Shown here: positions 7,162 to 48,589 of the stretch, in pieces
How positions within the stretch are numbered: position 1 is the stretch's first letter
Layout of the letters: every line of letters begins with the position of its first letter
Assembly (NCBI GenBank): GCA_030248225.1
Contig: JASANE010000314.1
Span: 1-64,000, forward strand
Length of the DNA: 64,000 bases
Reading direction: 5' to 3'
Source of the DNA: Trileptium ribeirensis
Lineage: Eukaryota; Nematoda; Enoplea; Enoplida; Thoracostomopsidae
Program-made: the position numbers and the translations under genes
Notes under the pieces: model-generated
What the model was told of the DNA's origin: nothing
Seen by the model: the letters and a program-made list of their open reading frames with translations, nothing else
Databases searched by the model: none

Positions 7162-7606
7162 GAGCGGAGCGAAGCGAAGCATTTTTGTTTTCTGTGTGGG
7201 AGTAAAAAGGCCGATGTCCGTTCGTTCGTTCGTTCGGTCCGACGGATCTCAAGAACCACTGAACCGATTTAAAAAAAACTTTTTTTGTTTGAAAGCCTAT
7301 CATGTCTGAGTGTGCACCTGATATTTGGGATTAAAAATTTTTGAGTGGTTAATTAGTAATGAGCTAATTACTTAAGCATATGCAGCTAAAATAAAGAATT
7401 TTGCAATATTTGTGTTATCTATTGAAATAGAACCGTTTCAATCAAACCATTATAGGGTTTTTGGGTCGAGGAATTCAAATATAATATTTTTACCAATGAT
7501 AAAGCCCTATACCCTATGCAATGTAGTTACAAGAACATAAAAGTGAGTACATTCGTAATGCCACAGCTCAAGCTCCGCTCACAAATGTAGTTCCACTACC
7601 GGCTAG
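7162..7606 (+). mobile_element. Helitron2/HINE-like element, family A copy 1
   Basis: Starts GAGCGGAGC after a host T; the complement GCTCCGCTC lies at 7572-7580. A hairpin (GTAGT, loop TCC, ACTAC, 7587-7599) follows, and the element ends CTAG before a T. It is 445 bp, with a (TTCG)n-like stretch near 7218. Near-identical copies lie at 8245-8697 (same strand) and 38413-38858 (minus), and all three end at the same bases. Confidence 0.75.
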
Positions 7607-8027
7607 TCACCTTTATATAGTAACGAAAAGATACACATATATTTCTAGGATTACACTAATGCAATAGGAGCCCTAATATCTTGTTTTATATATACTTTAA
7701 CTAAAGTCATCAATTATAGCAGCGCTAATTCAAAATGATTGGTTTTAGCTGTGAATGGAACCTGTTATATTTTGGATTGGCGCAACCGAGACGGTTTAGA
7801 ATTCAGTAAAAGCCCCCTTCGAACCTAAGTGTTGTTTTCTTATAATGGATTCTTATGTTATATGGCATGCTAATGTGCGATTTTCTCTTCTAGGTGTAAA
7901 GTTAACATTGAAATAAACAAAAAATTTGTTTTCATGTTTTTTATGCAGGCTGCATTGATGCCCATTTGAGATTATATAAGCCGTATATATACTTTATAGC
8001 GATTGTGCAGTTAATAGAATTTTGTAG

Positions 8028-8177
8028 TGCCAGAATACCGCGAGAAGCTATTGTACGAAAAGTCTCTTTACGATGCTTTGAAAGAGAAATACGGAGTTAT
8101 TGACGAGACCGATGAGTTACCGGAAGCAGAGCCTTGTGATGTCAACAACTTTGGTGTCATACTACCTGGTCAAAGAA
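8028..8177 (+). CDS. TBCEL: TBCEL exon 1 of those found: N-terminal segment
   Basis: Encodes residues 1-50 plus one base of codon 51, beginning PEYREKLLYEKSLYDALKEK after a split first codon. The SLYDALKEKYG part aligns with the SFMQVLCEKYS region close to the N-terminus of human TBCEL, so little protein is missing upstream. The donor is A|gtatgt (phase 1). The acceptor is uncertain. The tag ending at 8027 leaves TG, so the initiator could be an ATG split across the junction (A from the previous exon). An ag at 8016-8017 would instead add four codons (N, F, V, V). An in-frame TAG at 8015-8017 rules out extension further upstream, and there is no in-frame ATG inside the exon. Two near-identical 450 bp mobile elements flank it, 421 bp upstream and 67 bp downstream. 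Confidence 0.85.
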
Positions 8178-8244
8178 GTATGTTTGTATCGATGTATGTA
8201 GAAGAACCATCTTCAATACGAAAATAAAGTAGCTATGAGTCTCT

Positions 8245-8697
8245 GAGCGGAGCTCGGCGAAGCCGAGCGAAGCGTTTTTATTTTCTGTCTGGGAGTAAAA
8301 AGGTCGATGTCCGTCCGTTCGTTCGTTCGGTCCGACGGATCTCAAGAACCACTGAACGGATTTTAAAAAACTTTTTTTGTTTGAAAGCCTATCATGTCAG
8401 AGTGTGCACCTGATATTTGGGATTAAAAAATTTTGAGTGGTTAATTAGTAATTAGCTAATTAGTTAATTTTATGCAGCTAAAATAGAGAATTTTGCAATA
8501 TTTGTGTTATTTATTGAAATAGAATCGTTTCGATCAAACCATTATAGGTTTTTGGGTCGAAGAATTCAAATATAATATTTTTACCAATGATAAAGCCCTA
8601 TGCCCTATGCAATGTAGTTACAAGAACATAAAATTGAGTACATTCGTAATGCCACAGCCCAAGCTCCGCTCACAAATGTAGTTCCACTACCGACTAG
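8245..8697 (+). mobile_element. Helitron2/HINE-like element, family A copy 2
   Basis: Same ends, hairpin and body as the copy at 7162. It begins 67 bp after the donor of TBCEL exon 1. The length is 453 bp, differing mainly by a longer GAGCGGAGCTCGGCGAAGCC start. Confidence 0.78.
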
Positions 8698-10449
8698 TCT
8701 CACGGGTACGCTGTTTTGTATACGGGTTGGTTAAAAGACATTGTCTCATGTGATGGCTAGGATGCATATTATGGAAGAACGCGTTGCACGAATGGGTAAA
8801 TCGTCTATCCCAGTTTGGTTCACAAAACCATAAATATGTACATTTAATATAAGCGGCTTGGTACCTGTGACTTAACACAAAATAAATCATACTGGCTTTC
8901 TAAAAATGTGATAGGTGGTCTTTGGCTATTATGGGCACCGTGGCGTTCTCCTGTGTAGTTGTAAAAATAGTTGATGAATATCGTCTTTTCGAGCAAATTA
9001 TAGCAAAGCACAACCACGTATCCCATCGAAATGCGTTAAAATTTACCACTTTAACTATTCCTCTATGTTACCACTAATTATTGTCTATTATGCTGTTATG
9101 CATTATTATTGTGTCTTATAAAATTATTTTCACCGAACGATTATTAGCAAACCACGCTAAACACATCGCCAACTCCAAGCTATTTATTGAATCCTACACA
9201 AACTCATTCGCCTGCGTTCATGTTTATGTTTAGTAGTTTTTCCTAGGAATAGATAAGCTATGGACACCCTATTTACCCGTTGCTGGACCTGGAGTGCGTC
9301 CCAGGTCCGTTTAAAGGTGCGAAGCCAAATCGAACATGTTAATGCTAATTTTCTTTGCTTGAAAATTTTCAAATATAAATGTGTTTATAAATATTCTTGC
9401 ATATAAAATTTGCGGGGTCTGTTGGTGCAGGCATATTTATTTAATTAAATTTATTGTCATCTTGCAGAATCATAGTTCATTTAGCGTTAGTGATGGTTGG
9501 CGGAGTGACTTAAACGTATGATTTAAACGGCTACTCCTCTGGATTATCAACTGGTTCTTTCAAATAATTACTGCTCATTCAGGGCCAGAAGAGTGGGGTG
9601 GCCTTTTAAGGTTTGCACGTATTCCAATTATATTTCATCCACAAAGGCTTTGGGCATCTTCGGAAACAGTTTAAAATGAAATTCTAAGCCGTCGCTGGAT
9701 CGTCAATGCGCTGCATATTTGTTTATAGAGTTATTAATAAAACTGTTATCGTCGAATTTTTATGGTCGACCTTGCCTTTTTCATTGTTGATCGAAAAATT
9801 TCGGGGTCGGAGTTTATTCAGTGAAAAGGTCGTCTCTGCTTTCCTATAGTGTGGAAATCCTACTTTCTGTTGCTGTGCAATAATAAATATATATATATTC
9901 CTCACCGCTTCCTAAACTTTGAGAATCAAATTTGTAACAACATGGTAATTGTTAAAACTGCTAACTGGCTATCTAAATAATGGAACCGTTGCTGGTGGTG
10001 TAATTTTCGTCTCTACGTTCCACAAACCTAACATAGGTGACTGCTCTAGCGAGCGGCTCAGGCATCCCAATAATTATTTGGCTGTGTGATTTCACAGAGA
10101 TTTTTCTAACTAAATGTAACACGTATAGCTCGAAATGAGCTGCTTCGGCTAGTCCTTGAAGGATCCTATGACAATGGTATTGTAAGTAGGTAGCATCAGA
10201 TAAAAGAAGCTACATTTTATTTTTTCCACTAGTGCATTCTTTTTATATTTAGCCTGATAATAAGTTATGTATTGACATGCCGTTAACGTGTGACTATTAT
10301 AAGGTTATAGTATTTCCTGTTTAATGCCGTACACCGTGTCCAGCTCGACCACGGTTTCTAGAAATGTTACAAGATCTTTTGGTTTCGGATCAGTGCAATT
10401 CTCGTTTATCTCGGTGTTTCATTTATGTGCTGTAGTTGTATCCTGTTGC
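8698..10449. other. Intron sequence, nothing recognised
   Basis: AT-rich, with stops in all frames. I saw no exon, RNA gene or clear repeat boundary here. Confidence 0.4.
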
Positions 10450-11995
10450 TAAAATAAATCAATCTTAGATAAATTTTACATTAAACTTAATGTATTGCGA
10501 TGACATTATTGCCTCTGGAACTTTGAAGATGGTGAGGAAGCTTATAATATTTATTTATCGGTCAAGATGTCGGCATTTTAGATCCGCAGACCAAAAAATG
10601 CTTTCCACTACATAATAGCCTTCCGTAAATTGTGCATATGCATGGCACGTAGATTAGACAATAATTTAGCTCTGTCTTCAATCGCCTCCCTTTACTCGAC
10701 ATCCCTTTGTTACATTTTATTTTGTAGGAAGGTTGACATTATTGGGTTATATGGTTTTAAAGAAATAAAAGAACGTATATTATAATTTCCTGATCAGTGG
10801 TCAGAGGCTTGTTCAGGCTAGAGTTGAGCAGCCAGTGCCCGTCAGCTAGATGAAGATGATTTTTTGATCAGGCTTCTATAAATGAGATAAAATGTAAAAC
10901 TGCTCCCATAGCTTCAATAAATTACAGTTCATTACCATGAACGCAGTTTCTGGCTGCGTTGCTGATGCGTTACTTTACTCCAATGTGGACTGATGTACAA
11001 ATTTCACGATCGCATGCTTGACGCAATTTATTTTAGCCAAGCTTACAGCTAATTACTTCTAAATAATTGAATTCTGAGTGAGTGAGTGAAACGAGCGAAG
11101 CGAAGAATTCTTACTAGCCAGGAGTGTGAAATTTGGCAGCATCTGTTTGTGGCTTTTTTTCGTGTGACATGCATAACTCTGATAGGCTGACCAGGTCGTC
11201 GATACCTCATTCGAAAGCTTGAAATCTCTTTTTGGGGCCGTTTAGTTTCCAAAAACCGATTCCAACACCTTCCCTTCAAAAGGGGGTCCGAAAGGGCCCA
11301 AGTAGAGTTACTAGGGATCCACCAAAATACGTTATAAGTCATATCTCGACAACCACCGGTGTGGTCTGGCCGAATTTGGGCTCATTTAGTTCAGAAAGTT
11401 TAGCTCTATTTAGCCGAGGTCACCTACGCTCCAGGCTTGGATCAAATTGGGTTTTAAAAAGCACCATTAGGACCCCCGAAAACATTAAATTGGTTATATC
11501 TTTTTAGCCGCTGGAGCGATTGGGCTAAGATTGGACTCATTTTGTTCTGAAAGCAAAGCTTTATATTGCTATATTCGCTGCGTTGCTATTGACTGTACCT
11601 GTCGACCGCAATTTATATTAGCCAATCTTTCAGCTAAGTACTTCTAATAATTCATACTCTGTTATACATATCAAGTTGGACCTGTTCAATTCTAACTTAC
11701 ACCGCAGATTTCGAAGTGGGAAAAACAGCTGCTACAATTATCGACCTGGCTTTGTTTTATTAAAAAAGTTCTGCATGGTCAAGACGAAAAATTTCTAATG
11801 CAAATATGTGTGTAACGTTTCACTGGGCAGTTTGCTGAGTTAATCTTTTTTGGTTTGTTTGTATAGGAACTTGATCATTGTGTATATATGTTGGACCGCA
11901 GATGTGGCAAAATTTAAACAATTATTTTTAACCGGCTACTTATGGTTTTTGCTTTTTGCAAGAACACGATTTTTTCCGAAACCGGAATTCCGGTT
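10450..11995 (-). mobile_element. Family G hAT-like element, inverted and interrupted copy 2
   Basis: The minus strand matches 4841-5960 along its length: the AATAATGYCATC region near 10500, GGAGGCGA near 10685, and an AAAGATTAACTCAGC block near 11850. It is interrupted at 11069-11608 by family C sequence, and about 45 bp of the G sequence is repeated on each side of that insert (11021-11067 and 11609-11660). The CAGGGA ends are lost. Confidence 0.7.
11069..11608 (+). mobile_element. Family C element, 5' part, inside family G copy 2
   Basis: Begins GAATTCTGAGTGAGTGAGTG, then shares GCGAAGCGAAGAATTCT with 40931 and 48044 and a body with the 48036 copy. The 3' inverted repeat was not found, so it is probably truncated or diverged. 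Confidence 0.6.
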
Positions 11996-12930
11996 ACATC
12001 ATGAAAGCTAACTGCAATAAAATTGAAAAATATTATCTCCTGCAACATATTTAATTTATAAATAAATATAAATTCGTTCGGACCCTTGGCTTAAAAAGTT
12101 GACCTTGACGTAAGCCACTTGAAGCAAAAGGCACATTTTTATAATGTTGTGGATTTGGTACACAAAACTTTGTTTTTTCTCTAATATTATGCATTAAATG
12201 CCTAACGGTAGTTGAAAATAACAAATGAGGATAGGTCTCCCTAAGCTCATTTTGTAGAGTGTGAGAATCTAGTGTATCTTCATATCACGCGTTATTGCGG
12301 CAGTTCCCTATGCTAAAAGATTGTATAAAAATAAGCCAACGAGACCCGAAATACACGAAAACTATAAATAACCAATAATCTTCATAACCAATAAAGAAAC
12401 GGATCTTATTGGGGTTAATTTGAAGAACGATAGAAGCTCTATGCAGCTGCATGCGACCCGTTGTTGCGGAATTTAGCTATCTTGTAGGATTATGTAAAAA
12501 TTGGTTTATAAGGTACAAAATACGCGAGAACAGCCATATCTTCATAACTAGTGATATCATTATTGGTCTTCTTGAGGTCATTTTGTAGAGAGAAGCTTTA
12601 TGCAACTGCATGTGATATGTTATTGTAGTATAATACACTCAGAATTCAACAACTTTGCCTCGACAAGTGCCTAGTATTAAGACGATATATTCTGGTAAAA
12701 ACATACGATTAAATACTGGTTAATCAGTTCCAAGTCTTACGTAACTCGTAGATCAGATATTTTATCATTTTATATTTATCCTGGTTTCTTCAAATAGAAG
12801 GAGGGTGACCCCAGCTATTTCGACCTCTCCGCCCAGGTCCGCCAATATCATCTCCCAGGTAAATTTTGGTTTCTATCTTTTCCCCAGGTACTTAGTTGCC
12901 CCACCAAAGTTACTAAATATTTGTTTAAAG
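11996..12930. other. Intron sequence, nothing recognised
   Basis: AT-rich sequence with no exon or repeat ends seen. Some internally similar phrases (GAAGCTTTATGCAACTGCATG-type) near 12430 and 12600 suggest an old tandem duplication. Confidence 0.35.
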
Positions 12931-12939
12931 TGCTAAAAA

Positions 12940-13397
12940 GGTTCTTTTCCATAATCCCCCCCCCCCCCCAGCGCGCGTTTGCCCCAAAAATGGTCAGATT
13001 CTGGAAATAGATTTTTATCCACCATTCGACGCGGCTTGACGAGCTAAGTCGAATGTTGATATTTTTAACGGGATCCGGTTACCATGTTATGGCCAAAACT
13101 ATCGGAGGCTGAGATGCTCAGCAATTGAACAGTTTTTGGGCCTAACTTAGGATCCAATTAAAAATAACACCATTACACGCAGCTCGTCAAGCCGCGTCGA
13201 CTGGTGGGTAAAAATTCAATTTTTAAGATTTTTTAGGTTCCCAAGGGACCCGAAAAGATCTAAAAAATATAAAACTTTAAAATCAATTTTTTGGTCGAAA
13301 TGATCAGGGGAGGTTTCGAGGATCACAAAAATATCAAAATTTCTAGAATCTGACCATTTTTGGGCAAATGCGGGCAGGGGGATAATGGAAAAGAACC
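12940..13397. repeat. Fold-back (large inverted repeat) element
   Basis: Left arm 12940-13045 and right arm 13181-13397 are reverse complements, with the right arm carrying about 120 bp of extra sequence. The inner 19 bp (13027-13045 against 13181-13199) are perfect, and the outer GGTTCTTTTCCAT block matches GGAAAAGAACC with one mismatch over 21 bp. A C-tract lies at about 12956-12969. There is no coding content. Confidence 0.85.
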
Positions 13398-13545
13398 CTA
13401 AAAATATTCTGATTTTTCCTTTTTTTCTAAAAATCCCCGAATCCTCAATCACAAAAATTTCTCTCAATTTAAGTAAGCACAATTATAATCACTTGCAAAT
13501 TAGACATTTTTAGACGGTTACTGTACTTAATGGCATGCCAACTGA

Positions 13546-14300
13546 CGATTACAGTATTTTATGGTCTCTCAGCTCAGCTGGGAGGGCGGGGAGGCACATC
13601 AACTGGTGGAATCGCCGACGAAGTATTTTTGGTTCTGTAGAACAGAACAGAGTAACAGAAATAGATGTCATTGGGTCCAACCCACGTGGACGACCGCAAA
13701 AGACCTGGCAAGAGACATTACGTCAAGACATGACTTCATGCGGTTTGCAACGAACAGATGCCAACAACAGAACACTATGGAGGAACGCCATTCGAAGATC
13801 TCAGTCCATCCCAGCGGTGCCTGGACAACGGACTCAAAACCGGAGATGATTATGATGGTGATAGAAGTGGTCTTACCGAACTGGAGACACCCTCGTGTAT
13901 AATTTTGCTAGTTTACAGAAGCCAGTTATTTTAAAGCATTTTAGCTGATTGAATCAAAAGTACAGTCGGCAATAACACCAAGCAGATACAATGCTAAATT
14001 TGTTTCGAGGAAAAAGTTACTTCTTGAACAAATATACCACCGATAATGATCAACCCTGGTAGAATGACTTAGGTAAAATTCAAAGAGCATACTGTGAAAT
14101 TACAATCTCCAGATTGACGGTGAAGCGAAATTAGACGATTTATGTTCGATGGTAATAAATTTATGCTCTTCATCGCAACCGGTGAATGCCCCAGAAATAT
14201 ATTAGAAGATTTATGAATTAACTTGAGCCAAAATTAAAAATAATAATATAATACAGCAAATAAAGAAATAAACATAAATGCACTATCAATATAGGGAAAA
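13546..14300 (+). mobile_element. Family H repeat copy 1 (related to hAT-like G)
   Basis: Matches the reverse complement of 19190-19707, sharing ACAGTATTTTATG, AACTGGTGGAATC, GCTTTGATTCA-type and TGACGGTGAAGCG blocks. It is interrupted at about 13640-13850 by a retroelement fragment absent from the other copy. Confidence 0.7.
13640..13850 (+). pseudogene. Fragment of a non-LTR retrotransposon reverse transcriptase C-terminus
   Basis: The open frame contains NPRGRPQKTWQETLRQDM, a downstream CGLQRTDANNRTLWRNAI, and then stops. The pattern GRPxKTW..DM..xGL..xDAxxRxxWRxxI is the conserved tail of many RTE-like reverse transcriptases after the catalytic domain. Only about 65 residues remain, without the palm domain. 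It differs from the tail of the element at 59.1 kb, so it derives from another family. Confidence 0.6.
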
Positions 14301-15100: not shown

Positions 15101-15144
15101 GACAATTGCTCACTCTAATCGCGAAGAAGCCGTCCCACAAACGC

Positions 15145-25392: not shown

Positions 25393-28165
25393 TGCGAGCG
25401 AGCGAAGCGAGCGGAATTTCCATTTAGTACGGTAAGCGGATAATCGTGAAAATTTCTTTTTGCCTGTTTCTGTTATTCATAACTCATCTTAGGATGTATG
25501 GTTTTCGATAACTTTCTTATTCGACAGCAAAAATGATGAGGATGTCCCATTTAATTGAAAACGAACAGCTCTGACCCCATCTTCGGAGTAAAAATGGCAA
25601 AAACAGGTTTTCTAGACGTAATGTAATGAAGATTGTGTGTTGCAGGGATGAAAGCTTTTCCGTCTGTGTGTGTGTGATCGGCCATAAGTCGGGATCGATT
25701 TAATAGATTTAACTGATTTTCATGATCTTGGGCTCATTCGATAGTCGATTTACCGTGTATATCTCCGAGCGTTTTTTGATTTGGGGTCTGGTTCCGGGGC
25801 CGGGGTCAAAATGAGGGGTTTTTACCCCATTTTAGTACCCTGCAAGGAAGCAAGCTGATTATATCTCAACCTTCGAATTTTTTCTCTGGTTAGATTTATT
25901 TCATAGTAAAATGATAAATGCCGATGCCTTTTTGTGTTTCGATTAAGGCTCCGGTTCTGGGAACCCAAAATTCGAAAATTTGTTATGACGTCCTGGGCGG
26001 CTTAAAACCTTTACTAGGGGGTTTTCGTGCATGTGAAACTCATTACCGAAGTTGGTTTTGCTGTACGACTCATGGTTCAATGGGTACGGGGGTATGGCTT
26101 TATATGGTTCGGGGTCAGAGGTCAAAATGAGTGTTTTTACCCCATTTTAGTACCCTTCACGGAAGCAATGTTATTTTTATCTTAAGTTTCGATTTTTTCT
26201 CTTGTTGGTTATATTTCATGGTAAAATGACAAAATCCGATGCCTCTTTTTTTGCTTTTCGATTAAGGATCCGGTTCTGGATTTATGGGGTTTGAGGTACG
26301 GCACCGTCGTGGTTCCTTGACCCAAAATTCGAAAATTTGTTCTAACTTCGTAACGGCTAAAAAGTTTTACTTGGGGTTTTCGGGCATGGAAACTCATTAC
26401 CGGAGTTGGTTTTGCTGTACGACCGATGGTTCAAAGGGTACGGGGCTATGACCACATACGGTTCGGATGGTTCGGGGGCAGAGGTCAAAATGAGTGTTTT
26501 TACCCCATTTTAGTACCCTTCTCTGAAGCAATGTTATTTTTATCTTAACTCTCGATTTTTTCTGTTGCTGGTTATATTTCATGGCAAAATGATAAATTCC
26601 GATGCATTTTTTGGTTTTCGATTAAGGCTCCGGTTCTGCAGTTATGGGGTTTGAAGCATGGCACCCTCGTGGTTTTGTGACCCAAAATTCGAAAATTTGT
26701 TATAGCGTCCTGGGCGGCTTAAAAGCTGTACTAGGGGGTTTTCGTGCATGGGAAACTCATTATCGGAGTTGGATTTGTTCTGCGATTCATGGGTACGGGG
26801 GTATGGTCAAAGGTCAACATGAGGGTTTTACTCCATTTTAGTACCCTTCACTGAAGCAAGGTTATTTTTCTCTTAACTTTCGAATTTTTTCTCATGATAA
26901 ATGCCGATGCCTCTTTTTCGATTAAGGCTCCGGTTGTAGAGTTATGGGATTTGAGGTATAGCACTTTCGTGGGTCCTCGACCTAAAATCCAAAAATTTGT
27001 ATTGACGTTCTGGTCGGCTGAAAAGTTTTACTACGGGGTTTCGGGCATGGGAAACTCATTGCCGGTGTTGATTTCGCTCTGCGACCGATGGTTCTATGTG
27101 TACGGGGGTGTAGCGCCCCCATTGTTCGTCGACCTCAAATTCCTAATTTTATTGTGACGGGGAGGCTGATAACTTTCACTTTGGGTGGTTTTCGGGCATG
27201 GGAAACTTATTGCCGGTGTTAGTTTTGCTCTAACTTGTACGGATGATATCCACATATAGCATATAGACTTATGCTATCGAGAGTTGATTGTCTGTGCATG
27301 CAAACGGCGTAGGTGTACATATGCTTCAGTACGTTCTGCAATCTCGATAAAGTTACTATTAATAATGAATATTTCCTAAATTTGGCCATACGGATACCTC
27401 GCGACAGAGGCTTCGCATGGACAAATGAAAACAACTCATCGAGATCCAAAACACTTTTACCACGAGTTTTTTATGGGACCACTTTTTGGGGCGCTGTAGG
27501 CTCGAATATGGCTCGTCGACCCTTTGCCAGAAATACTGGTTTTTCAATTTTGCGTGTTTTACCTTACAGCGTGCGTCTATTTGGCATCAGGTAAGCTGGA
27601 TACGTTAGTTTTGCTATTTAGAGTCCAACTTTACTTATCGTTTCATTGGGGTTTCAAGGGTTTTACGGTCGACGAACTCGATTTCCAAATTGTAGCGAGT
27701 TTTCGTTTGCCTAGTTACTTATTGCTTGTATGACATTAAGTGTGGTTTATACACAGTTTTTTTGTACGCTGGACACCATGGTTCGGCTATCTAACGCATA
27801 TTTCAGAAGTTTTCAATGGCTTTAGAGTCAATGAACCCGGTTATCGAAAATAGTCAATCTTCAGTAGTTTGTTTACGTATTACATACGGGACATCAAGAA
27901 TGGTTGGTCTGGTTCATATTATGCTGTAAGGGATGCTGAATGCGGTAGTTCGGTTATGTAGAGGCCAGTACGAACTTTTCGTGTGTTTTCAGTTTTTGTT
28001 TTTTTACGTTCGACAAGGTTTTAGGGTTTTCATTGGGTTCAGTATTGCAGAGGTATTAGTGTATTACATAAATCAAACACAAAGCCTGTTACTAGGTGAT
28101 TTCATAAGATTACCACTTAATCAAATCACGCTCGCTCGATTTCACCCTCGTTTGCGAGTTATTAG
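25393..28165 (+). mobile_element. Helitron2/HINE-like element, family D copy 1, with internal tandem array
   Basis: CGAGCGAGCG at 25395-25404 near the 5' end is complemented by CGCTCGCTCG at 28129-28138. A hairpin CTCG-TTTG-CGAG (28147-28158) follows, then a 3' end at ..TTATTAG or ..CTTAG|T. The 5' part (GCGGAATTTCCA..) and the segment at 27400-27560 match other D copies in the same orientation, so they belong to one element of about 2.8 kb. The 25620-27240 array is nested or is its core. Confidence 0.55.
25790..27240 (+). repeat. Tandem array of 300-360 bp units (family K)
   Basis: GATTAAGG(C/A)TCCGGTT marks units at 25941, 26260, 26620 and 26920 (spacings 319, 360, 300). Each unit also has CCCAAAATTCGAAAATTTGT and GGGAAACTCATT. 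The same unit occurs at 860-1700. Confidence 0.92.
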
Positions 28166-28171
28166 CTTAGT

Positions 28172-29239: not shown

Positions 29240-30530
29240 CTAGTATCGAGAATGCGACGTTGAAACGGAGCGAGCGCGTGGTTTCGCTTTTAAGTTATCA
29301 TTTTGTGTAATCGTCTTAAACGCTTTGTTGTTGCATATACCACCCTAAAGCGTCTGGAACCTTGAACCCCAAAAACCCAAAACCTAATCAACCCTAAACC
29401 CATCGAAAACTACTGACAATTCAAGTGTTTATGCTGGTCTGTAGATAGCCAAACCAGCATCCAGCGTACCAAAAACTTATATATACAGCTTTCTTGGTGC
29501 CCTTTACGCAATACACAAAGTACTGAAGACAGATTATGTTCTGAAAATCAGTCTTATTCACCATAAAACCATTAAAAACCTTCGAACCAAATATTCGCGG
29601 TTGTCGCCACATAACCAAACTATTGTTTCCAGAATACTGACAAATCTGTATATAGACCGTTTTGATTCCATGTACCAATCTACTCATTACCGATAATGTT
29701 CTGGAAATCGAGATCATTGACCCTACACTTAATGGAAACTTCTGAGAGGGCATGGGATACTCGCGTTGGGGTCTAGATAACCAAATCATCGTTTTAAGCC
29801 TATCGAAAACCTATATATATATAATTCTTGACGTTCTGTAAGCAATATGTAACTAAGCAGCTGAAGACATGCTTGCTTTATTGATCCTAATCCCATTGAA
29901 AGTTCATGGAAAAGCATGTAAATATGCACACAGGATTCCAGATAACCAAATCATTGTATTTAGCCTTGCGAAAAATGTATAGTTATACGATTATTCATGC
30001 CATGCACACAACACATAACCAAACAAATGAAAATGCACTACATTTTGGAAATTGGATTCGTCGACAGAAAAACACAGGAAATCTCATCAAAACGTATAAT
30101 ATTGTCAAGTTGGACTCTAGATACAATACTATCGTATCCAGCGTGCTTTATAATCTAATAGGTACTCATTGTAAGGTAAAAACAAGCGATAACATGTCAA
30201 AATTTGAAAACCGTTTCTCGCAAAGGGTCGACGAACCATGGTCGGGCCAACAATGGCTCAGGATGTGGTCCCACAAAAAGTCGTGGAGCAAAGTTGTAGG
30301 CCTGGATTTGCTGATTCTGTTTATATTTTATGGCCTGTCTCGCGAGATATGGGTTGTGAAACAATGCTACCCGCATGTTCAGACTTGGCAAAGAACCTTT
30401 AAAACTTGCACTTTTGCCATTTTGACACATGAAAATGAGGCCGGAGTTGTTCGCGTTTAACTTAAAGGCTCATCGTCATCACTTTTGATATCGAACAAAA
30501 AATTTATTAAAATTAGTATCTCCGAAAATG
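29240..30530 (-). mobile_element. Helitron2/HINE-like element, family D copy 2, 5' truncated
   Basis: On the minus strand the 3' end is CTAG (29240-29243) followed by host T. CGCTCCGTTTCAA (plus 29260-29272 read in reverse) is the exact complement of TTGAAACGGAGCG at the 5' end of the 41.5-42.0 kb copy. The interior has about four tandem units of 160-172 bp (29440-30120). The body at 30190-30530 matches the other D copies (GGGTCGACGAACCATGGTCG). A long open frame at 29906-30460 lies across it and is not a gene. Confidence 0.65.
29440..30120. repeat. Tandem units of about 165-170 bp
   Basis: Markers TTCTGAAAATC, TTCTGGAAATC and TTTTGGAAATT at about 29537, 29699 and 30041, with an intermediate unit near 29871. 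Units carry AGATAACCAAATCATTGT. Central part of family D copy 2. Confidence 0.75.
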
Positions 30531-30554
30531 AGTTATGTACATACAACACTGTAT

Positions 30555-30850: not shown

Positions 30851-30883
30851 TAATGTTCTATTAATAAGCTATTAACTTTTCAG

Positions 30884-35074: not shown

Positions 35075-35200
35075 CTAGTATCTAGTCTTATCACCGATGT
35101 GGTGAATTCTGAGTGTTGAATATGTAATTTGAGAGATGTGCTTAGCTATATTGGGCATAGTTACAAGATAAGTCACAGAGTATCAGCCACGTTGCTGGAA
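35075..35200 (-). mobile_element. Family C element, 3' terminal fragment
   Basis: Minus-strand copy of the 3' end of the 48036-48589 element. The inverted repeat is GAATTCTGAGTG on plus at 35104-35115, and the hairpin TCACC-GATGT-GGTGA is at 35091-35105. CTAG tetramers lie at 35075 and 35082. Similarity fades after about 35180. It lies in TBCEL intron 7. Confidence 0.65.
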
Positions 35201-35715
35201 TAGTTGAGAAGATAATATATCGATTATTGTGCTCGCAATTTTGAAGTACATAGAGAACGAATTGCTATACAGAATGTCACCAAACACACCTATATTGCTC
35301 AAGTAGTTGTGGAGATATTACCATTTTAGTGTATTTTGTGTCCCATGTGCCCATTGATGGAAAAAACACTTTTTAACCCAACGCTGCAGCAAAATAATAT
35401 GAATAACAGCACACTATTTGAAACTATATACAGCTCAGTGAATCCAAGATTTATTCTGATAAGTTGGTGTCTATTGTACCCTGAATGTTTTTAATTTATT
35501 AATACAATTACCTAAACACTAGAAATACTAGTTTGAAAATATTTGTGTCATAGTTACTGGTCCTGAAAAGAACATGAAAAAATAGCATTCCGCTATATGA
35601 AATGTGTCCTTTAAATGAACACCGTTATCCCCCACAGATTCCCGAAAGACTGTGAGTTGGGCAGCATTATAGTAGTGCCCCATCAAGTATGCAAGCCTTC
35701 TATTGTATTTCTTAG

Positions 35716-35910: not shown

Positions 35911-36039
35911 GTAACTTTGATTTTTTACTGAGACCATTATTTGAGAAATATGTGTGATAACAGTTTCGGCGCATAAACTTGAGGCAGTGGCCCCGCGCCC
36001 TGTTTAGAATTGGAATGGAAATCGGTGGATGTATTGTTT

Positions 36040-36939: not shown

Positions 36940-36984
36940 GTAAGCCCCACCTTTTTCTCACTTGTGAAAAGAAGCCACTACTAA

Positions 36985-38412: not shown

Positions 38413-38858
38413 CTAGTCGGTAGTGGAACTACATTTGTGAGCGGAGCTTGGGCTGTGGTATTACGAATGTACTCAATTTATGTTCTTGTAACTACATTGC
38501 ATAGGACATACAGCTTTATCATTGGTAAAAATATTATATTTGAATTCTTCGACCCAAAAAACCCTATAATGGTTTGATCTAAACGACTCTATTTCAATAA
38601 ATAACACAAATATTGCAAAGTTCTCTATTTTAGCTGCATAAAATTAACTAATTAGCTAATTGCTAATTAACCACTCAAAATTTTTTTAATCCCAAATATC
38701 AGGTGCACACTCTGACATGATAGGCTTTCAAACTAAAAAAAGTTTTTAAAATCCGTTCAGTGGTTCTTGAGATCCGTCGGACCGAACGAACGGACGGACA
38801 TCGACCTTTTTACTCCCAGACAGAAAATAAAAACGCTTCGCTCGGCTTCGCTCCGCTC
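38413..38858 (-). mobile_element. Helitron2/HINE-like element, family A copy 3
   Basis: Minus-strand copy of the 450 bp element. GCTCCGCTC at 38850-38858 marks the 5' end on the minus strand and CTAG at 38413-38416 the 3' end. The flanking bases again give host T on both sides. Confidence 0.78.
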
Positions 38859-39268: not shown

Positions 39269-40247
39269 GAATTCGAGTGGAATGAGCGAGCTACGCGAGA
39301 TCATTCCAGTCGCGAGCGAGTGGAACGAGAATTTTCAATTTTGGCTTTGGAGGGGGTTGAGGAGGTCCTGTCTGTGTGTCGCACCTGGATCTCGATAACG
39401 GTTGGGCGGATTTTGATGCACGATAGCTCATTCGAACAGCAATGGTCGATTTAGGTGTAGTGACGGAGCCCGATTTTTGAATTTTTTGCCGCGAGAAAAG
39501 TTATGGGGCAAAATGACGTCATTTTGGCCCATTTTCGGGCACCCCCTCCAGTTTTTGTGACTTTTCTCAACAAGTACACGAGGTATCCGCAAACTTAAAG
39601 ACCTATTCCATGTAGCTTTACCAGGGCTTTCCAATGATATATAACAAGTTTTTCAGCTACTTCCCAGTCTGGAGTCTATAAGCTTATAGTTGGCGCCAAA
39701 TTTCATATTTCGTGAAAAGCGTGGGAAATACACCTAAATGTGTGTTTTTTGTTGCTTTTAGTGTCTTATATGGGGGTTTTCTGGGCAGATAAACTCATTG
39801 CAAGTGTTAAAAATATTGTTGGGCAAATATTTTTTACACTTCTGGCTCATACTTGGCATAAAAAATTACGTTTTCGCAATTTTTGGTGAAAAGTCGTGGG
39901 AAAAGTACTTAAATGTGTGTTTATTGTTGGTTTTAGTGTCTTATATGGGGTTTTCTGGGCAGATAAACTCATATCAAGGGTTAAAAATATTGTTGGACAA
40001 ATATTTTTTACACTTCTGGTTCATACTTGGCATAAAAAATGACGTTTTCGCAATTTTTGGTGAGAAGTCGTGGGGAAAGCACTTGAACGTGTGTTTATTG
40101 TTGGTTTTAGTATCGTATATGGGGTTTTCTGGGCCGACAAGCTCATTGCGAGTGTCAAAAATATTGTGTGGCAAATATTTTTCACACTTCTGCTTCGGGG
40201 GATTGTTCTCACCACTCGAATTCTGGCTCGCAAGCGAGCTTCACTAG
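39269..40247 (+). mobile_element. Helitron2/HINE-like element, family B, complete
   Basis: Begins GAATTCGAGTGG after a host T. The exact 12 bp complement CCACTCGAATTC lies at 40212-40223. It is followed by a perfect hairpin GCTCGC-AA-GCGAGC (40226-40239) and an end at CTAG (40244-40247) before a host T. The centre holds three tandem units of about 175 bp (starts 39740, 39915, 40089). Total 979 bp with no transposition protein. Confidence 0.78.
39740..40200 (+). repeat. Three tandem units of 174-175 bp inside family B
   Basis: Each unit has GTGTGTTT, TTTTAGTGTCTTATATGGGG, AAACTCAT, AAATATTGT, a run of T, CACTTCTGG and TTTTCGCAATTTTTGGTG. An open frame of 149 codons spans them and reflects the periodic sequence, not a gene. 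Confidence 0.92.
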
Positions 40248-40930
40248 TTTGTCGTGAATAGTCCAAATGTAAATAGTAGTATTTTAGTTTCGCTATAATA
40301 CGTTTTTGTCAGGACTATCATTTTTGGTGTCACGTCAAAATACCTGGGGAAGCTAAAATTTACCTTGGGGATCGGCTAAATCCTGTGGGCCATTTGGGAT
40401 AAATAGATTATGATAATCATGTTTCTTCGGTAATATTCATTTAAGCGCTTGCACTATCTTGTCACAAGGAATCAGTATGACTGAAATTATCTCATACTTA
40501 TTTGTTTTACAGCTTAAAAATAAACGGACAGCTGGCTGTTGCGGTCATGTAATTCCGTGCTTAGAATAATAATTTGCAATTTAATATTTAGCGAATTTAG
40601 CTAGTACTGTAACTAATTTTTTTGTTTTGTTATAATTTTTTTACATGAATCTCTCAGCAGTGTGTTTCGTGCTACAACTCTTCTTTTGTCCTGGCTTTAA
40701 ATTTAGATATTTGCAGTTATGCCATGTCTTCTAAATATAATGTTCACATGCTTAGGAACATACAGCGTTTTGAATCGAAGGTTCATATATTTTATGTACG
40801 TATTCCAGATTTGTTTATGCAATGTATTCTGCATTCTGAACAGACGGAATTGTACAATAAATTCTCCGAAGGCAGACAAAACTATAGTACGATTAAGCCA
40901 ATAAATTTTTGGATTAATTAAAATCTGACT

Positions 40931-41530
40931 ATAGTGAGTGAAACGGGCGAAGCGAAGAATTCTTATCCTTACAATGACCTTTCACAATGCCTGGTTATGT
41001 GTTTTCGGGGAGACATGCACAACTGGACTTTGGTTAGGTGTATTGATTCGCGCGACAGCTCGTTTGTAAGGGTGAAGTCTCGGACAACTTCCGATTACAT
41101 TAGCTTCCACTGAAAACGCAGGGCAAACGTCGGATCCGGGGGTGGGGAATCGCGGTATTTGTTGTGAGTCAATTTTGGCTCAATTTGCCACGTAATTAAG
41201 CCTCTAAAAGACTGTATATAAAAGTTTATAACACTGCTCTTGTGGAAAAGCGATTTGGGTCAAACGAGAGTTTTAAATGAACCCATAATGCACAAACTGC
41301 ATGAAAACACAGTTCGACCTATATTGGTGTGATGCGTACATAGTGAAAAGAATCGTGCTGTCTGACTACGAAAACCATACACACGCCATTTCCAAAGGTA
41401 AATCAAGCAGTTTCTAACCAAAATGTTTTGTTTGCTGAGCCCCTTAAATGTCTTGGAAATATAATATCACAGTGGTAAATTAAGACAATGTAACGGTGAT
41501 TTTCAGCGTGGTTCAAAACTATGAGACGTT
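40931..41530 (+). mobile_element. Family C element, 5' part
   Basis: Starts AGTGAGTGAAACGGGCGAAG and shares GAATTCTTA and the AGACATGCACAA body with the 11069 and 48036 copies. The 3' end is not identified; the right limit is approximate. Confidence 0.5.
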
Positions 41531-41539
41531 TCTTTATCC

Positions 41540-41998
41540 ATCTGTTTTACTGAAATGTACAGTACTCACCCGAGTATTAATTCTAAGTGTTGTTCCCTGG
41601 AAAACACTATTTCTGTCAAAGAGTCGACGAACCATATTCGGCCCACAGCATCCTAGGGAGTAGTCCCACAAAAGTGGTCGTGGTATTGTAGATCTCGATG
41701 TGTTGATTCTATATTGTGGTTTCCAGGGAGATATGAGCTGCGAAACAATGGTAAGCAATTTGGCAAAGAACCCTTAAACACCTGATTTTTGCCATTTTAA
41801 ACCGGAAGATGGGATCGAGCTGTTCACGTTCAAGTAAAGGCCACATCTTCATCAGTTTTACTATCGAACAAAAAAGTTGTCGAAATCCAAAAATTAGTTT
41901 TGAATCAATGGCAGCGACAGACAATAAAGATATTTTCACGATTTTTCACGCTTGCGTCTTCAGTGGAAATTCCGCTCGCTTCGCACGCTCCGTTTCAA
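41540..41998 (-). mobile_element. Family D element copy 3, 5' part
   Basis: The minus strand begins TTGAAACGGAGCG (plus 41986-41998), then GCGAAGCGAGCGGAATTTCC as at 25393, followed by the shared body down to the GTCGACTC..CAGAAAT block near 41620. The 3' inverted repeat was not found. Confidence 0.65.
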
Positions 41999-41999
41999 T

Positions 42000-44900
42000 A
42001 ACCGCGACACACGCATTCATGATATTGTATTAGCAATGCTTTCATCGCATTAAGCAACCGCGAAAACTTGTAGGTCCATTAAACAACTGAAGGGTCATTT
42101 AAATAATTACACAATAATATAAAACTTCATAGCCTTAAAGCTTTTTTATCCACCCTATATATATTTGACATTTTGAGGCTTCTTGATCTTGAACACCTTA
42201 GATTGTAACTATATGCCAGCTGCAGCCTAAAACACCGAACCTAGCACATTTAACATGTTAATAACACCACAAGCCCATTGTGTCTTTTGCACTCTGCAAG
42301 AAACTCAATAGTCAAAATTTGGGTCGCAGCTCGACAAGGGTGTTAGGTCGAAAATTGCACAACAGCAAAGCTGTAGCTCTCAATGAGAACACTCTGTCGT
42401 CTCATAAAACGACATAAACATAATATGTTGGGTTATCAATGCCAGAGTGACACAGAGGTTAATAGGTTTCAGTTTTTTCGTTTTGGGTCAAGAATGAATC
42501 ATAGCTTTATGTTATGTAATACTGTAGCGATGCAAATAATTCATGGCTATAAGTAAGCTAATATTATTATTAAGATTATTATTATTATTGTTATAAAGTT
42601 ATTTTGATGATTTTCTTGAGATCATTCTTGAAATTCTGGAGGCAAGTTCTTAAACATTGACATTTCGGCAATAAGGGCGTTCATTGTTTTAAAAACAAAT
42701 ATGTTGTGACGTTATGAAAATGATTTAATATAAAAAGCTTTGCACAGAAGATCTGGGCAAGTCAGTTTTATTCTTGAAGTTTTAATGCTGCTAGTTCGTG
42801 CATAATAAACGTCGGGTGAATTTTGTATTGCCGTCCTCATCAGGAAGGCAAAGCTCTTCTGTACACGGAAGGGTTAGCTTGTGCTCTTCTGCAATCGGAA
42901 GGGTAGCTCAAACATTATAGTTATCGGCCTCGGTCGGCTAGTGACATCCGTAAACGGATTGTCATTTCTCGACTGGTACATCGTTTTAAGAACCCACACC
43001 GACCCATCACACTACAATACGATCATTAGGAGTTTATATAACAAAAAATGGAAAATATATTCCACGATGGCTTATGGTTGTCACAGGCGAAAGTTTGCCA
43101 ACGGTTAAACGCTATTAGAGAAAACTGTTTTATTTCACTATATACGTATGTATGCTAGCAAACTATTCAAAGTGACAAACGTATACGTTCGGTCCACTGG
43201 TGTTTGAGATCTGTTTCTTCGCCTGTCTTATCAGTTACGTTGTTTTGAAACTGAATGGTAAATATGGTGTTCACAAGGCATATTATGTAGCGTATCAATG
43301 CGAAGGTAATATGAGAGTAGAAACCGTGAGATGATTAAGTTGAAAGATCTTGTTGTAGCGTTCCCAAGCCGAGAGGAAATTATATATGGTGCTCTCTGAG
43401 TGCATATGTATGTGCGGAAAAGTTGTGGACACTGAAGCAAATTAGTCGACTGACAGATAACAATATTTCTTGTTCTCCGAAGCCCCAAGTCTTCTAACAT
43501 TCGAGTAACTATGTCGGTCATCGACAGTTCTTTGCTGTGCTAAAAGTATAATGTACACACGTATTCCAGAGATTATACCTAATCTTATCGCCAAATCTTG
43601 TTTTTAAAAAACTAATTGGGTTATCTTGTTTTGTCTATTTGTTTGGTGAAATTGCTACGGTAAATATTTTTTATTACATTTACGTAATATATAATTTATA
43701 TTTTTGCACTATTGTATAAATAGTGTATATATAAACTTCGTATTTAGGGAACATTTTTTAAAAAGTCAATGTTCACAAGGACACTCAGTCTCGTCTGTAT
43801 TTTTTCTTGTAGTTAGCATGCATATTTCTTATAAAGACCTTACTGCGGCTTATGTTATGATTTCTTCGTAACAAAAGCGGTACAGACGTAAAGCTTCAGT
43901 GTAAAGTGGGAAACAGGTTCAGACACCGTTAGATTATGGTTTTACTAGCTGTTACCGCCAGTAAAGATTTGAATAAAAAATTGTTGTCACTTCAACGCTA
44001 GGTGTAAAGAACAATGAAATGAAAATATACGAAACGGCCCTTTGTAGTTTCTAAATCCAAACAATGAGAGCTGTGCGGGTAGGCTTTCGAATCATGGCAG
44101 AGTTTGGTCGTCTGGCGTGATGTCTGCACTGGGACTTCCCCGGTTGAAATTTGTGGAAATATTGAAGTTATACAAGCTCGATATATTCATGGTATTCGCC
44201 GTCGAATTTATTCCCGCAAATACGTATGCGAAAATCGCACATTTTACGGCTAAGATTTGTATAGATTAAAGTTGCGAAAATGGTTTGAGGAATATTGTTG
44301 TAATACGCATATCTGTAGTCAACATTGAAACTGTATAGTTTTGGAGATACGTGCTAGATATTATCCATTGCGAGATGCTGGTAGCCATTGCAAGTAATCC
44401 CGTTCGATCTATTTACTACTGCGTAATAATTTTAACACGGTTGCTTTTTTGTTGAATGAACGATATGCGTGCTACAATGCTAATGTATATCAGAAGGATA
44501 TCTACCGTTCAGTCGGCAACTTGCAGCTATTGGTTGAGATATATTCCATGGTGTTACGCAAAATACTGCAAGGCGACAAAGTACATTTTTGTCAGACGAA
44601 TTAGTTACGGACAATTTACATTAGGCTCCGGATTGCTGCATGTATTCATCTATATGAGTTGATGAAAGTAATAATAACGAGAAACAACTTATTTAATTCG
44701 GGTATGATATATTGCACGCAAGATTTGTAACGTTGGAGGTTTGTCTCATGATTGCGAAAATATCAAACAATTTCAAGATACTACAGCCAATGGCCTCGAA
44801 AAACATTATAATCCGAACGCTGTAAGGTCGATTGTGATGGCATATTTGTACTGTATACTTTATGCGAAGTATTCCCGAGCTTATATTATTAGCTAATAAT

Positions 44901-45930
44901 TTGCAACGACAAAAATTATTTTACTACATTACACAACTGGAACACCCGTTGTTACACATTTTATTTTATAGTCATAATCTCAGTATTGTTCTCAATCGCC
45001 TCTACATTTAGCAGTTTTCTGTTTCTGTTTGTTGCTAAAACAAAAGGTGTCGTTTTTAAAGTTTTTAATGTTGATCTTGTTGGAAAAATTCATCTTAAAT
45101 TTTTAGATTATCAGGCCCTTGGGAAATTACACACGGGTCTTCTAGTAGTTCCATAAATAGTTGGAAGCATTGACCGCGGTATTTGTTGCTATTGCCGTAT
45201 TACGTAAACGAATATACATATATATTGGTATATTTAATGTACAAGAATGCTGGATAAATCCTTTCACGCTTTGCTAGTGGTAGTGGATTAGTAGCTAAAA
45301 ACCTGAAGAAGCTGGGTTCGTGCGGTATATGATTTTGCTACGGGGTGGCATGGAAAGCTGTTTAGTTTATAAATATATACTAAAACACATGGCATTTTTA
45401 ATTTTGATACTGTAATGTGGTGAAGCGACCAAGGAGAAGCAATGCCATTTCGTTTTGTTTCATAAATTCTTATAGTAGTATGTATATATTTCGTAAATTA
45501 AGCAGTAATTATATAGTCTGTAGCTAAAATTGTGATCACTACTGGAAACGTATCTGGTAATCTCGTAAAGTGGGAGCACGAGGGTTGGCTCAATGGAGCG
45601 GCGTATATTACTGGTGATCCAATTTGATCACCATGACAAGGAAACGGACGTTCTCCATAGCTATGGTATTAGGCGCCTATGTCGTGGAATTCTCAGCTTC
45701 CGTTAAATCGGAGTTTGATATTAAGTTAAATTTGAGTTAATTTGAGAGAAAAACAGAAAGAACAAAACATAATCTGATACCTTACTACCTAGCTATGTAT
45801 TAAGTGATAATATATTAATCACTACAAAAATTACAGAAAACTAATAGAAATACTGTTGGAGCACCGGCGTAGCTTGGAAGTAGCCAAAATTAGTAAACGG
45901 CACAACTATATCTTAACTATGACTAAATGG
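42000..45930. other. Intron 8, unassigned 3.9 kb
   Basis: AT-rich. I find no exon, RNA gene or clear element ends. A phrase near 42330-42420 (GCAAAGCTGTAGCTCTCAATGAGA) weakly recalls family D. Confidence 0.35.
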
Positions 45931-45939
45931 TCCGCACAT

Positions 45940-46560
45940 TTAGCGGAATTTAAAAAACACTGGTGTCGTTTAGCGAGCAATGTCCTGAAACTTGGTGGTT
46001 CTTTTAGCACCCGCTATCGAAATTATAGGTGATGTTCTTCAGATCGCTCGTCCTTTAGATAGCGGGGCATTGTCAACGAAATGACTGAATCCTTCCCTTT
46101 ACTTAGTAATACTAAGAGCTGTTCAAAAGAGTTGACTGTTCGTTTCTTTTATTGAGCGTTATCTAAAAACTGTATTAGGGTATCTGTAACGAAAAACTTT
46201 GATATTTATTTAGACGGCGCTGTGGTAAACACTATGCTACAGGAGTCTGATCAATTCCATAATATCATTAAGCGAGAAGCTTTCGCTTAATGTGGCTGGT
46301 GGGTGACGAAAGTGGGTCTATTTTTTCGTCGTATAGCAGGGGCGGCGAATACCACACTGGCAAGAAATTTGTTATTATAAAGCATAGGTGCAGAATAGTT
46401 TAATGATAAATCTGCGAAGCCGCCGATATAGGTTAACAATTTGCGCGTTTCGAGGGCCTGAAAAAATTATCCGAGCGCTCGGGAACAGGCGTAGTAGCTT
46501 TGAACAAGCCTTAGATTTTCGCGGGTACCCTCGGGTCGAAAATATTTACGCACGCACACT
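45940..46560 (+). repeat. Dispersed repeat family I, copy 1
   Basis: Shares an ordered set of similar segments with 52290-52850: a TAGCG..CTATCGAAAT block, a GTTCAAAAG..TTTATTGAGC..TATCTAAAA block, and a TTGCGNGTTTCGNGGGCCTGAAA block. Divergent; ends not defined. Confidence 0.5.
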
Positions 46561-46706
46561 TTTGCGTCAACATACAACTACAACTAACAATGCCATAATT
46601 TCACTACTTTGTTGCTAAAATTTAGTTTTATTGCCCATTGCAACGCCTTACAAAGGTAACGACACACCAACCATACTTTTGAAACCATGAAACTTACATG
46701 TTTCAG

Positions 46707-46800
46707 AGATGGAACCGGGTCACTTGGGTCACCACTTTCGAAAGGGTCACTAAGTAAAGTGGGTCAGGGTCACAAGCATTGACCCGGTTTAACTATCAAC
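46707..46800 (-). repeat. End fragment of repeat family F
   Basis: AACCGGGTCAC start and repeated GGGTCA motifs match the end seen at 63720 and, reversed, at 47930. Only about 90 bp. Confidence 0.6.
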
Positions 46801-47611
46801 CCAAAATATAGCCAAAAGTCCGTAACCCAACCCGGCGCATTACTAACTTTGGAAGTCCATACCTAACACAATCAGTCTTTCGATTGTTGTTAACTTCCTC
46901 GTAGCTTCAATGTGCTGGCAAAATGTGTGTTGAAGGCATCCATCTCAGTTTATTGTGTTTTTATTTATATATCTTCTAACGGCCGGCTAGTGGCAGTACC
47001 TATCGACAATTACCGTAGGGCAATTACTTTTTGTATGGAAGCCCTATTAAATGCAAGGTCATTGGAAACCGTTAGAAATCTCCAGTAACTCCCTACACGA
47101 CCAAGATGTCTTTCACAAAAATTCCCAAAGACTCAAGTTAGGAACGTCCCAATTGTCGAAAAGTACCACCAATCCTACTTCCGGTGTACCAAACATAGCT
47201 GATTTTGAGCCCCATTAGAGAACTGGAATTTGGGGAGGCTCCTCAGCCTTGTATTTTTTAGTTAACATTATGTTATGTCTGTGCTATGTGTGGATCTGAG
47301 AATCAGTGAGCTCAATATGTTTCATTGTTTTAAATTGATGGATAATGTAAATCTGATGTGCGAACAATGTATATAATCAGATTCCAGATCATCACCATTA
47401 GATTCCGACCTTTTCCCATTATTTATCTTAACGTACGTTAAGATTAAGCCTAATCCTTGGAGTGATTTTAACTTCATTCAGAAAATGCCAGCCCTGGCTT
47501 GAACCAAGATATTACCTTGGCATAAAGTAGATTCGTTGCGCGGGAATTCCAGCTATACATTAATCTTTGCTTCAAATCTAATATTGTATTCGAAAGGCTC
47601 AAGACAGGTTT

Positions 47612-47945
47612 CATCAACTGGTGGAAGGATGCTCCGACGGGGTGGATCGCTGGGATAGGGGTGGTGGGCTATGTGTGGGTCAATCCTCGTCAACAATGCG
47701 CAAGCATTGGCAGAGTACCCACGAAACAAATGAAAATGACAGTTTTTACAGGCTAAAACATGGTATTAGAAGAGCGCTAAAAAGAGCATTTGCGATGCAA
47801 TCTAGACAACCAAATATACAGTTGGCGTGGCAAAAACTGACAATTGGAAGCAACCGGGTCAGCGGGTCACTGACCCAACCGGATAACCGGGTCAGCCAGC
47901 CACCAGGGTCACCGGGTCACGTGTAGGTGACCCGGTTGCATGTCT
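47612..47945 (+). mobile_element. Dispersed repeat family F, copy 1
   Basis: The full-length match to the reverse complement of 63715-63995 is roughly 75% by eye. It starts AACTGGTGG, contains AAAAAGAGCATTTGCGATGC, and ends in a cluster of GGGTCA/TGACCC motifs and GTAGGTGACCCGGTT. The clustered short motif at one end resembles hAT MITE subterminal repeats. An open frame of 101 codons has no family similarity. Confidence 0.7.
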
Positions 47946-48035
47946 GACCTGTTTATGGTCTTATGCCAATGTAATAATGTATAGCGGAAATATGCTGTAT
48001 TTTTAAGTTATGTTTGTAGTATATATTAATGCCTG

Positions 48036-48589
48036 ATTTCTGAGTGTAGTGAGTGAAGCGTGCGAAGCGAAGAATTCTCACTAGCCGTGACAGTGGTGAA
48101 ATTTGACAATGGTTTTTCAGGGTGACACGCATAAGCAAATAACCATCTATACCACTATATATAATGCTTAGCTATGCTGTTCTCTACGGATGTGGAATTT
48201 TTGTCAAAATGGATTCGAAGACGGGTCCATGAGATCCAAAATATACGAAAATGGTAATATCTCGACAACCCTTCAAGTTATATGGTTGTTTTTGGTCATA
48301 TTTGGTAGAGCAGATGATCTATGTAGCTGTAAACGGTTTACTGCTAAAGTGATTGTTTACTTTGCAGGGTTGGGACAAAACGGTTTTTTCCGCTCCCATG
48401 GCACGTTAAATACACCAAAATGGTAATATTTCCGCAAATAATCAAGTTTTGTCAATTTTTTTGGTCTTAATCTGTAGAGCAATTCATGTTCACTTTGTAA
48501 TTAGATGCTCAATATAGCTGTGTGCTTCTTTCTAAATGCCATGTTCAACACTCAGAATTCGCTACCTTGGCGATAAGATAAGCTATTAG
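48036..48589 (+). mobile_element. Helitron2/HINE-like element, family C, apparently complete
   Basis: TTCTGAGTG (48038-48046) at the 5' end is complemented by CACTCAGAA (48549-48557). A hairpin TCGCTACCTTGGCGA (48559-48573) follows, and the 3' end is TTAG before a T. GCGAAGCGAAGAATTCT follows the 5' end, as in other C copies. About 554 bp, no coding content. Confidence 0.62.

Follow-up and report, generated by a model that had tools for sequence, protein, structure and literature searches.

Here, we report that four families of repeats, A to D, in 64,000 nucleotides of the nematode Trileptium ribeirensis (contig JASANE010000314.1, positions 1 to 64,000 of the forward strand; referred to as the window) are very probably transposons with Helitron2-type ends, and that family C was likely moved by rolling-circle transposition via a Rep/helicase (RepHel) element with which it has terminal sequence in common. 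Family C could be tied to this predicted helper, and families A, B, and D are provisionally filed as Helitron2-type by structure only. The work follows up an original prediction made from the window alone; this sequence-only guess now has a concrete counterpart in a predicted helper whose ends match, and empty sites help to fix the termini. The elements of the window are the following.

7162..7606, plus strand: A1, family A; 5' repeat GAGCGGAGC, 3' repeat GCTCCGCTC, hairpin GTAGT/ACTAC, end CTAG before T
8245..8697, plus strand: A2, family A
38413..38858, minus strand: A3, family A
39269..40247, plus strand: B, family B; 5' repeat GAATTCGAGTGG, its complement 24 bp before the CTAG end, which precedes T, hairpin GCTCGC/GCGAGC
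39708..40192, plus strand: central tandem repeat of B, 2.8 copies of a 174-bp unit
48035..48589, plus strand: C1, family C with both ends (start given as 48036 in the original prediction)
35075..35388, minus strand: C2, 3' fragment of family C; CTAG end before T at 35075, hairpin retained via compensatory change relative to C1
11069..11605, plus strand: C3, family C; 5' end exact, without the 3' part
40924..40963, plus strand: C4, degenerate family C 5' end
25394..28165, plus strand: D1, family D with both ends; 3' end at 28165 or 28170
25963-26777: central tandem repeat of D1, 363-bp
29240..30535, minus strand: D2, family D; 3' CTAG end at 29240, without a 5' end
41540..41997, minus strand: D3, family D; 5' end at 41997, extending to about 41540, no 3' repeat found
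987..1655, plus strand: D-like stretch of internal repeats, ends not clear

In families A, B, and C, a repeat at the 5' terminus has its complement near the 3' end, and between this complement and the end lies a hairpin, followed by CTAG or TTAG before T. The 5' repeat measures 9 to 10 bp in A, 12 bp in B, and 12 bp in C (C3 5' end against the C1 and C2 3' ends; 10 bp within C1), and the distance from the end of its complement to the 3' end is 26, 24, and 29 bp, respectively. The 3' hairpin was seen in all three A copies, B, C1, and C2. A common terminal layout had been proposed for all four families, with a repeat of 9 to 13 bp and its complement 25 to 40 bp inside the 3' end. For A1, A2, A3, B, and C1 this layout stands, with measured values of 9 to 12 bp and 24 to 29 bp, and it is weaker in D, where D1 has both ends and D2 and D3 have one each. 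Of the family D copies listed in the original prediction, D2, on the minus strand, is without a 5' end and D3 without the 3' repeat; the D3 5' end matches the D2 3' end over 12 bp as computed and 13 bp by eye (TTGAAACGGAGCG). Missed altogether had been the C 5' ends at 11069 and ~40924 and the D-like stretch at 987-1655.

Conservation among copies supports these boundaries. Family A copies are 90 to 96% identical and have a common CTAG stop. The 3' ends of C1 and C2 are in register, and their similarity is lost right after TTAG or CTAG before T. Two changes separate their hairpin stems, a double one from G-C to A-T and one from T-G to C-G; they are compensatory, so that pairing is retained. 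The 3' ends of C2 and D1 were chosen partly by the rule that T follows. Directly after the CTAG or TTAG end of A3, C1, D1, and the D-like stretch, we observed TTTAG or CTTAG (38412-38408 on the minus strand, 48590-48594, 28166-28170, and 1672-1676, respectively), which may be a target preference or a second stop.

Chance controls were run on the ends and on the whole architecture. When the first 14 nt were compared with the complement of the last 70 nt, the longest match was 9 (A1), 10 (A2), 9 (A3), 12 (B), 10 (C1), and 10 nt (D1), and among 20,000 random window segments of the same length these values were equaled by 67, 22, 52, 2, 31, and 19, respectively. In unbiased scans, the whole architecture reached only moderate significance against shuffles: 10-mers gave 7 hits (shuffle mean 1.98, maximum 6; 60 shuffles), a GC content of at least 6 of 9 gave 6 hits (0.56, maximum 3; 100 shuffles), at least 5 gave 7 hits, five of them family A end combinations and two others (2.04, maximum 6), and at least 4 gave 12 hits (5.44, maximum 12).

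Several points at the ends weigh against our interpretation. Most 5' and 3' hairpins fold no better than shuffles: as single-stranded DNA, only one of eight 5'-end 50-mers (B, z -3.49) and one of eight 3'-end 50-mers (C2, z -2.71) folded more than 2 standard deviations better. Thus, the case for the hairpins stands on position and conservation, not on energy. The D1 hairpin comprises 4 bp only, and a search for a hairpin in D2 found none. Moreover, the D1 3' end is ambiguous, with TTAG at 28165 followed by C and a second TTAG reaching to 28170 followed by T.

The four families had been regarded as unrelated, which is wrong in part, given two links. The sequence GCGAAGCG occurs eight times in the window, both strands counted, always beginning no more than 30 nt into an element of family A, C, or D (shuffle mean 0.61, maximum 3; 100 shuffles), and B and D1 have a common internal block, equaled in 0 of 200 shuffles and likewise when the first 60 nt were left out. 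The B-D1 pair was the only clear case among nine between-family pairs in shuffle tests. For A2 and B, the values were 2 of 200 for the whole elements and 19 of 200 once the first 60 nt had been removed; B and C1 gave 8 and 3 of 200, and the remaining pairs were near chance. B and C3 both start with GAATTC.

Genome-wide copies of the ends, for which a search had been proposed, were retrieved from the host assembly (687 Mb, 20,229 contigs); the 5'-end searches returned the best 41 of 1,768 candidates for A and the best 40 of 1,754 for C3, and 30 C loci were fetched, window C3 included. T precedes GAATTC in 29 of the 30, TT in 26, and T stands at position -5 in 28. Since the C query began at GAATTC, independent evidence comes from the conserved TT and the T at -5 and not from the start itself. 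The 3' repeat and end were recognized in 21 of the 30 loci, with up to 10 mismatches tolerated in 29 bases, and read exactly CTAG in 15, TTAG in one, and another tetranucleotide in five; the next base was T in 18 of the 21. For family A, re-reading of five loci, window A1 included, found T before the 5' end in all and CTAG before T in four (L003, L004, and L007, on the other strand, were left out from eight A loci). Motifs of family A had no matches outside the host genome in scans of viral_contigs and genome_contigs. With TT-GAATTC in C and GAGCGGAGC in A, the elements do not start with the 5'-TC of canonical Helitron1, whose CTRR-3' end agrees with CTAG and whose A/T target agrees with the two empty sites described below. 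Two observations weigh against our interpretation: eight C loci besides C3 have no 3' end in the stretch examined, and L012, L030, and L031 have common flanks, so that they may not be independent insertions.

To read the target, we set 21 joined flanks against the window and the loci retrieved, and three matches spanned the junction. One of them (L017) was too AT-rich to read, which leaves two readable empty sites, L032 and L035, both of C loci with imperfect termini. At L032, all three paralogs read GGTTA/TCT, the slash marking the point of insertion, and the filled site has two extra T. At L035, two of four paralogs are likewise empty (TTAA/TG or TCAA/TG), and the other two are not readable. 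These sites are free of target duplication and indicate A/T as target, the element either starting with TT and entering A/T or starting with T with one T doubled. Thus, the T/T target of the original prediction was not borne out; both empty sites read A/T, with TT assignable to the element. At the six full-length window elements, the longest exact flanking duplications are 1 (A1), 3 (A2), 2 (A3), 3 (B), 1 (C1), and 0 or 1 bp (D1), that is, never more than 3 bp and of no fixed length.

A candidate helper links family C to a rolling-circle mechanism. PF14214 had 42 matches in the host genome, single genes at times contributing more than one, and none in 14 control genomes, and among 15 PF14214 loci the Rep motif was GSPH in seven, GLPH in six, and neither in two. 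Two helper copies were delimited.

C12367:52306-45398, 6,909 bp: helper 1; TT followed by GAATTCGGAGA at the 5' end, TCTCCGAATTC, hairpin CTTGGC/GCCAAG, and TTTCTAG before T at the 3' end
C3592:34305-27356, 6,950 bp: helper 2; layout as in helper 1, the 5' repeat being of the GAATTCGGAGA type with its complement on the 3' side, a hairpin, and CTAG before T

The helper has Rep and PIF1 domains, the GSPH motif, and C-like ends, and may belong to the Helitron2/Helentron group. By Pfam, the open reading frame (ORF) of C3592 contains the domains DUF6570, Helitron_like_N, PIF1, and OTU. The first 60 nt of both helpers are similar to L023, a full copy, as well as to C1 and C3 (0 of 200 shuffles in each comparison), as are the last 50 nt of helper 1 to C1 and L023 and of helper 2 to L023, and nt 60-460 of the helpers to C3 and L023 (0 of 200 shuffles). 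C12367 and C130 are 99.0% identical over their last 1,104 bp, up to a common 3' boundary, and C7812 is 98.1% identical to both over ~500 bp, diverging beyond. This near identity of two copies supports recent helper activity only, to judge from sequence. The active helper that had been expected elsewhere in the genome therefore has a probable counterpart for C, recent rather than current activity being what the copies support; no helper could be assigned to A, B, or D.

Not all comparisons favor the helper. In C12367, the domains found in the C3592 ORF are spread over three reading frames, so this copy may be broken. The last 50 nt of helper 2 are at chance against C1 (37 of 200), as are nt 60-460 of both helpers (77 and 124 of 200). 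Over the first 60 nt, B reached marginal values against the two helpers (6 and 2 of 200), with weaker ones elsewhere; D3 gave marginal values as well (7 and 12 of 200), and the ends of A and D1 are at chance; nt 60-460 of A2 gave a single low value against helper 1 (1 of 200). No matching pair of A to D ends was found in the fetched stretches of the RepHel loci on C13717, C13966, and C2566/C6774, where L062 and L063 each have one D5-like 11-mer with one mismatch. A D-family 3' end (L054; 74% over 165 bp) lies at C3592:27295-27134, ~60 bp past the helper 3' end. It was rejected as the helper's own end, as the helper repeat, hairpin, and CTAG before T precede it, at 27356. A full A element near the helper sequence of C7812 was taken as a neighbor. 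A second RepHel lineage, on C2566 and C6774 (L062, L063, and L068-L071), is 99.3% identical over its 3' part and has different ends, with a 5'-side palindrome CACCACCGTCC...GGACGGTGGTG and a 3' boundary ...GCTTGTT. In the window itself, ten ORFs showed no transposase or RepHel by Pfam, and a six-frame motif search had no match for Rep motif 2 or the PIF1 Walker A.

We propose that the Rep protein would nick at the 5' TT-GAATTC end and that the helicase would peel off one strand. At the other end, the stop at CTAG would be marked by the 3' repeat together with the hairpin, termination at a 3' hairpin being given for Helraiser in excerpts of PMC4778049, and the strand would enter an A/T site. 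Families A, B, and D may have been moved by the same or sister helpers.

C3 differs from the six full-length window elements in being flanked by a 47-bp duplication, which counts among the points against our interpretation.

11022..11068, plus strand: left copy of the 47-bp duplication
11607..11652, plus strand: right copy, 89% identical to the left copy
4985..5444, minus strand: paralogous site without C3, with the duplicated segment once and uninterrupted

Clear target duplications had been named as evidence against the Helitron2 assignment; one is present at this truncated copy, and none at the six full-length elements. C3 begins at GAATTC, where its similarity to the empty paralog (5444-4985) stops. 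Of 29 further C copies, 21 remain similar to it as far as position 536-537 of its total of 538 bp, and as those copies with a recognised 3' end have an element length of 290 to 1,241 bp, C3 stops before its 3' end. The last 150 bp of C3 and C1 are at chance (190 of 300 shuffles), so that the truncation point relies on the closer C copies. A 141-bp query over the empty junction returned, among the best 40 of 2,580 candidates, the window's own included, only single pieces of 132 to 142 bp. The uninterrupted form of the site is thus common, and duplicated or interrupted copies could rank below these 40.

We speculate, at a chance we put just short of even, that C3 is a Helitron2 insertion that was one-ended and of mirrored polarity. 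Its 5' end would have been joined precisely and the strand would have ended ahead of the 3' terminator; repair by the host would have closed the second side, leaving a target duplication of 47 bp, so that transfer in this lineage would start at the 5' end; the lineage, with its asymmetric terminal inverted repeats (ATIRs), 5'-TT, CTAG-3', A/T target, and Rep-PIF1-OTU protein without endonuclease, would form a bridge between canonical Helitrons and Helentrons. This interpretation gains slightly from the placement of the C3 stop at the duplication. According to passages of PMC3627910, 5'-truncated Helitron2 copies have variable duplications, a few of them of 44 bp or more, and the start of transfer was inferred from such copies to be the 3' end; in the read-through model for Helraiser, as outlined in part of PMC4778049, the 3' hairpin is the terminator. 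In C3, the 5' end alone would have worked, and more such copies, if present, would show which end starts Helitron2 transfer. Alternatively, the 47-bp repeat might stem from a later local duplication or conversion that by chance ended at the element, an explanation to be taken seriously but which we hold somewhat below even. C3 is a single case, as only one of the 30 C loci, and one of the nine in which no 3' end was recognised, carries a long repeat of its flank that reaches the 5' junction. The other eight showed no such repeat; L030 has a 15-bp AT-rich one. However, the left boundary of the duplication coincides with the C3 5' end and its right boundary with the C3 stop, and the segment is present once in the paralog, with at least 39 further genome copies spanning the junction in one piece.

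For the class as a whole, the original prediction had named Helitron2/HINE. Its Helitron2 part is upheld by the ends, the genome copies, and a RepHel element with family C ends. Strictly defined HINEs, which derive from a Helentron with an endonuclease and insert at T/T, are in our view an unlikely identity for the families. The subterminal repeats, the 3' palindrome, the central tandem repeats of B and D1, and the GTTC/GTCC microsatellite of A fit the HINE plan given in parts of PMC4067079 and PMC7492417, and the helper has both the GSPH motif, a Helentron sign, and an OTU domain, reported in Helentrons in the same portion of PMC4067079. Central tandem repeats or a microsatellite of HINE type were not found in family C. 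A Pfam search confined to the family C helper, covering the C3592 ORF and four ORFs of C12367, detected no endonuclease, and the two readable empty sites have A/T rather than T/T. As no endonuclease was found in the helper, family C is better described as Helitron2-like and appears not to be HINE in the strict sense; for A, B, and D, a HINE identity may still apply. Miniature inverted-repeat transposable elements moved by a cut-and-paste transposase are very improbable: although the copies are short and have inverted repeats, and some protein-less families of this kind were first named as such (PMC4067079, in part), the 3' repeat lies 24 to 29 bp inside the end, so the repeats are not symmetric and terminal, a target duplication of fixed length is absent from the six full elements and from the empty sites, and a RepHel element has terminal sequence in common with family C.

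Elsewhere in the window, a pair of 117-bp inverted repeats (47745-47861 and 63762-63878) is 87% complementary at a distance of 15.9 kb, and a 262-bp tandem duplication (49388-49901) has two copies matching at 95%. Broken ORFs at 59135-62523 on the minus strand presumably belong to an element resembling long interspersed nuclear elements. Three ORFs scanned there had no Pfam match, and a protein search with one of these ORFs matched a single hypothetical protein without a name.

Compared with known systems, the elements resemble Helitron2 CRe of Chlamydomonas, described in parts of PMC3627910, in the ATIRs of 8 to 15 bp, terminal at the 5' end and 20 to 30 bp inside at the 3' end, the 3' hairpin, the predicted RepHel helper, the absence of duplication at full-length copies, and variable duplications at truncated ones, some of them long (44, 50 bp, and more). 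In contrast, truncated CRe copies lack the 5' end and retain the 3' end, opposite to C3, and CRe inserts after TTTT, whereas here the target is A/T with T at -5. With Helentrons and HINEs such as DINE-1, as presented in sections of PMC4067079, they share subterminal repeats, the 3' palindrome, central repeats, GSPH, and OTU; unlike in these, no endonuclease was found in the helper, and the target is A/T rather than TT. FoHeli1/2 of Fusarium, according to excerpts of PMC5148889, likewise have ATIRs, hairpins, no endonuclease, and a TNAT-type target, but start with TCAG and end with ATTTT, in place of TT-GAATTC and CTAG. Proto-Helentron-Pi of Phytophthora, as covered in part of PMC4067079, has the same 5' TT, 3' CTAG, A/T target, and GSPH-type RepHel without endonuclease; it is described with a Helitron-like structure, whereas the elements reported here also have ATIRs.

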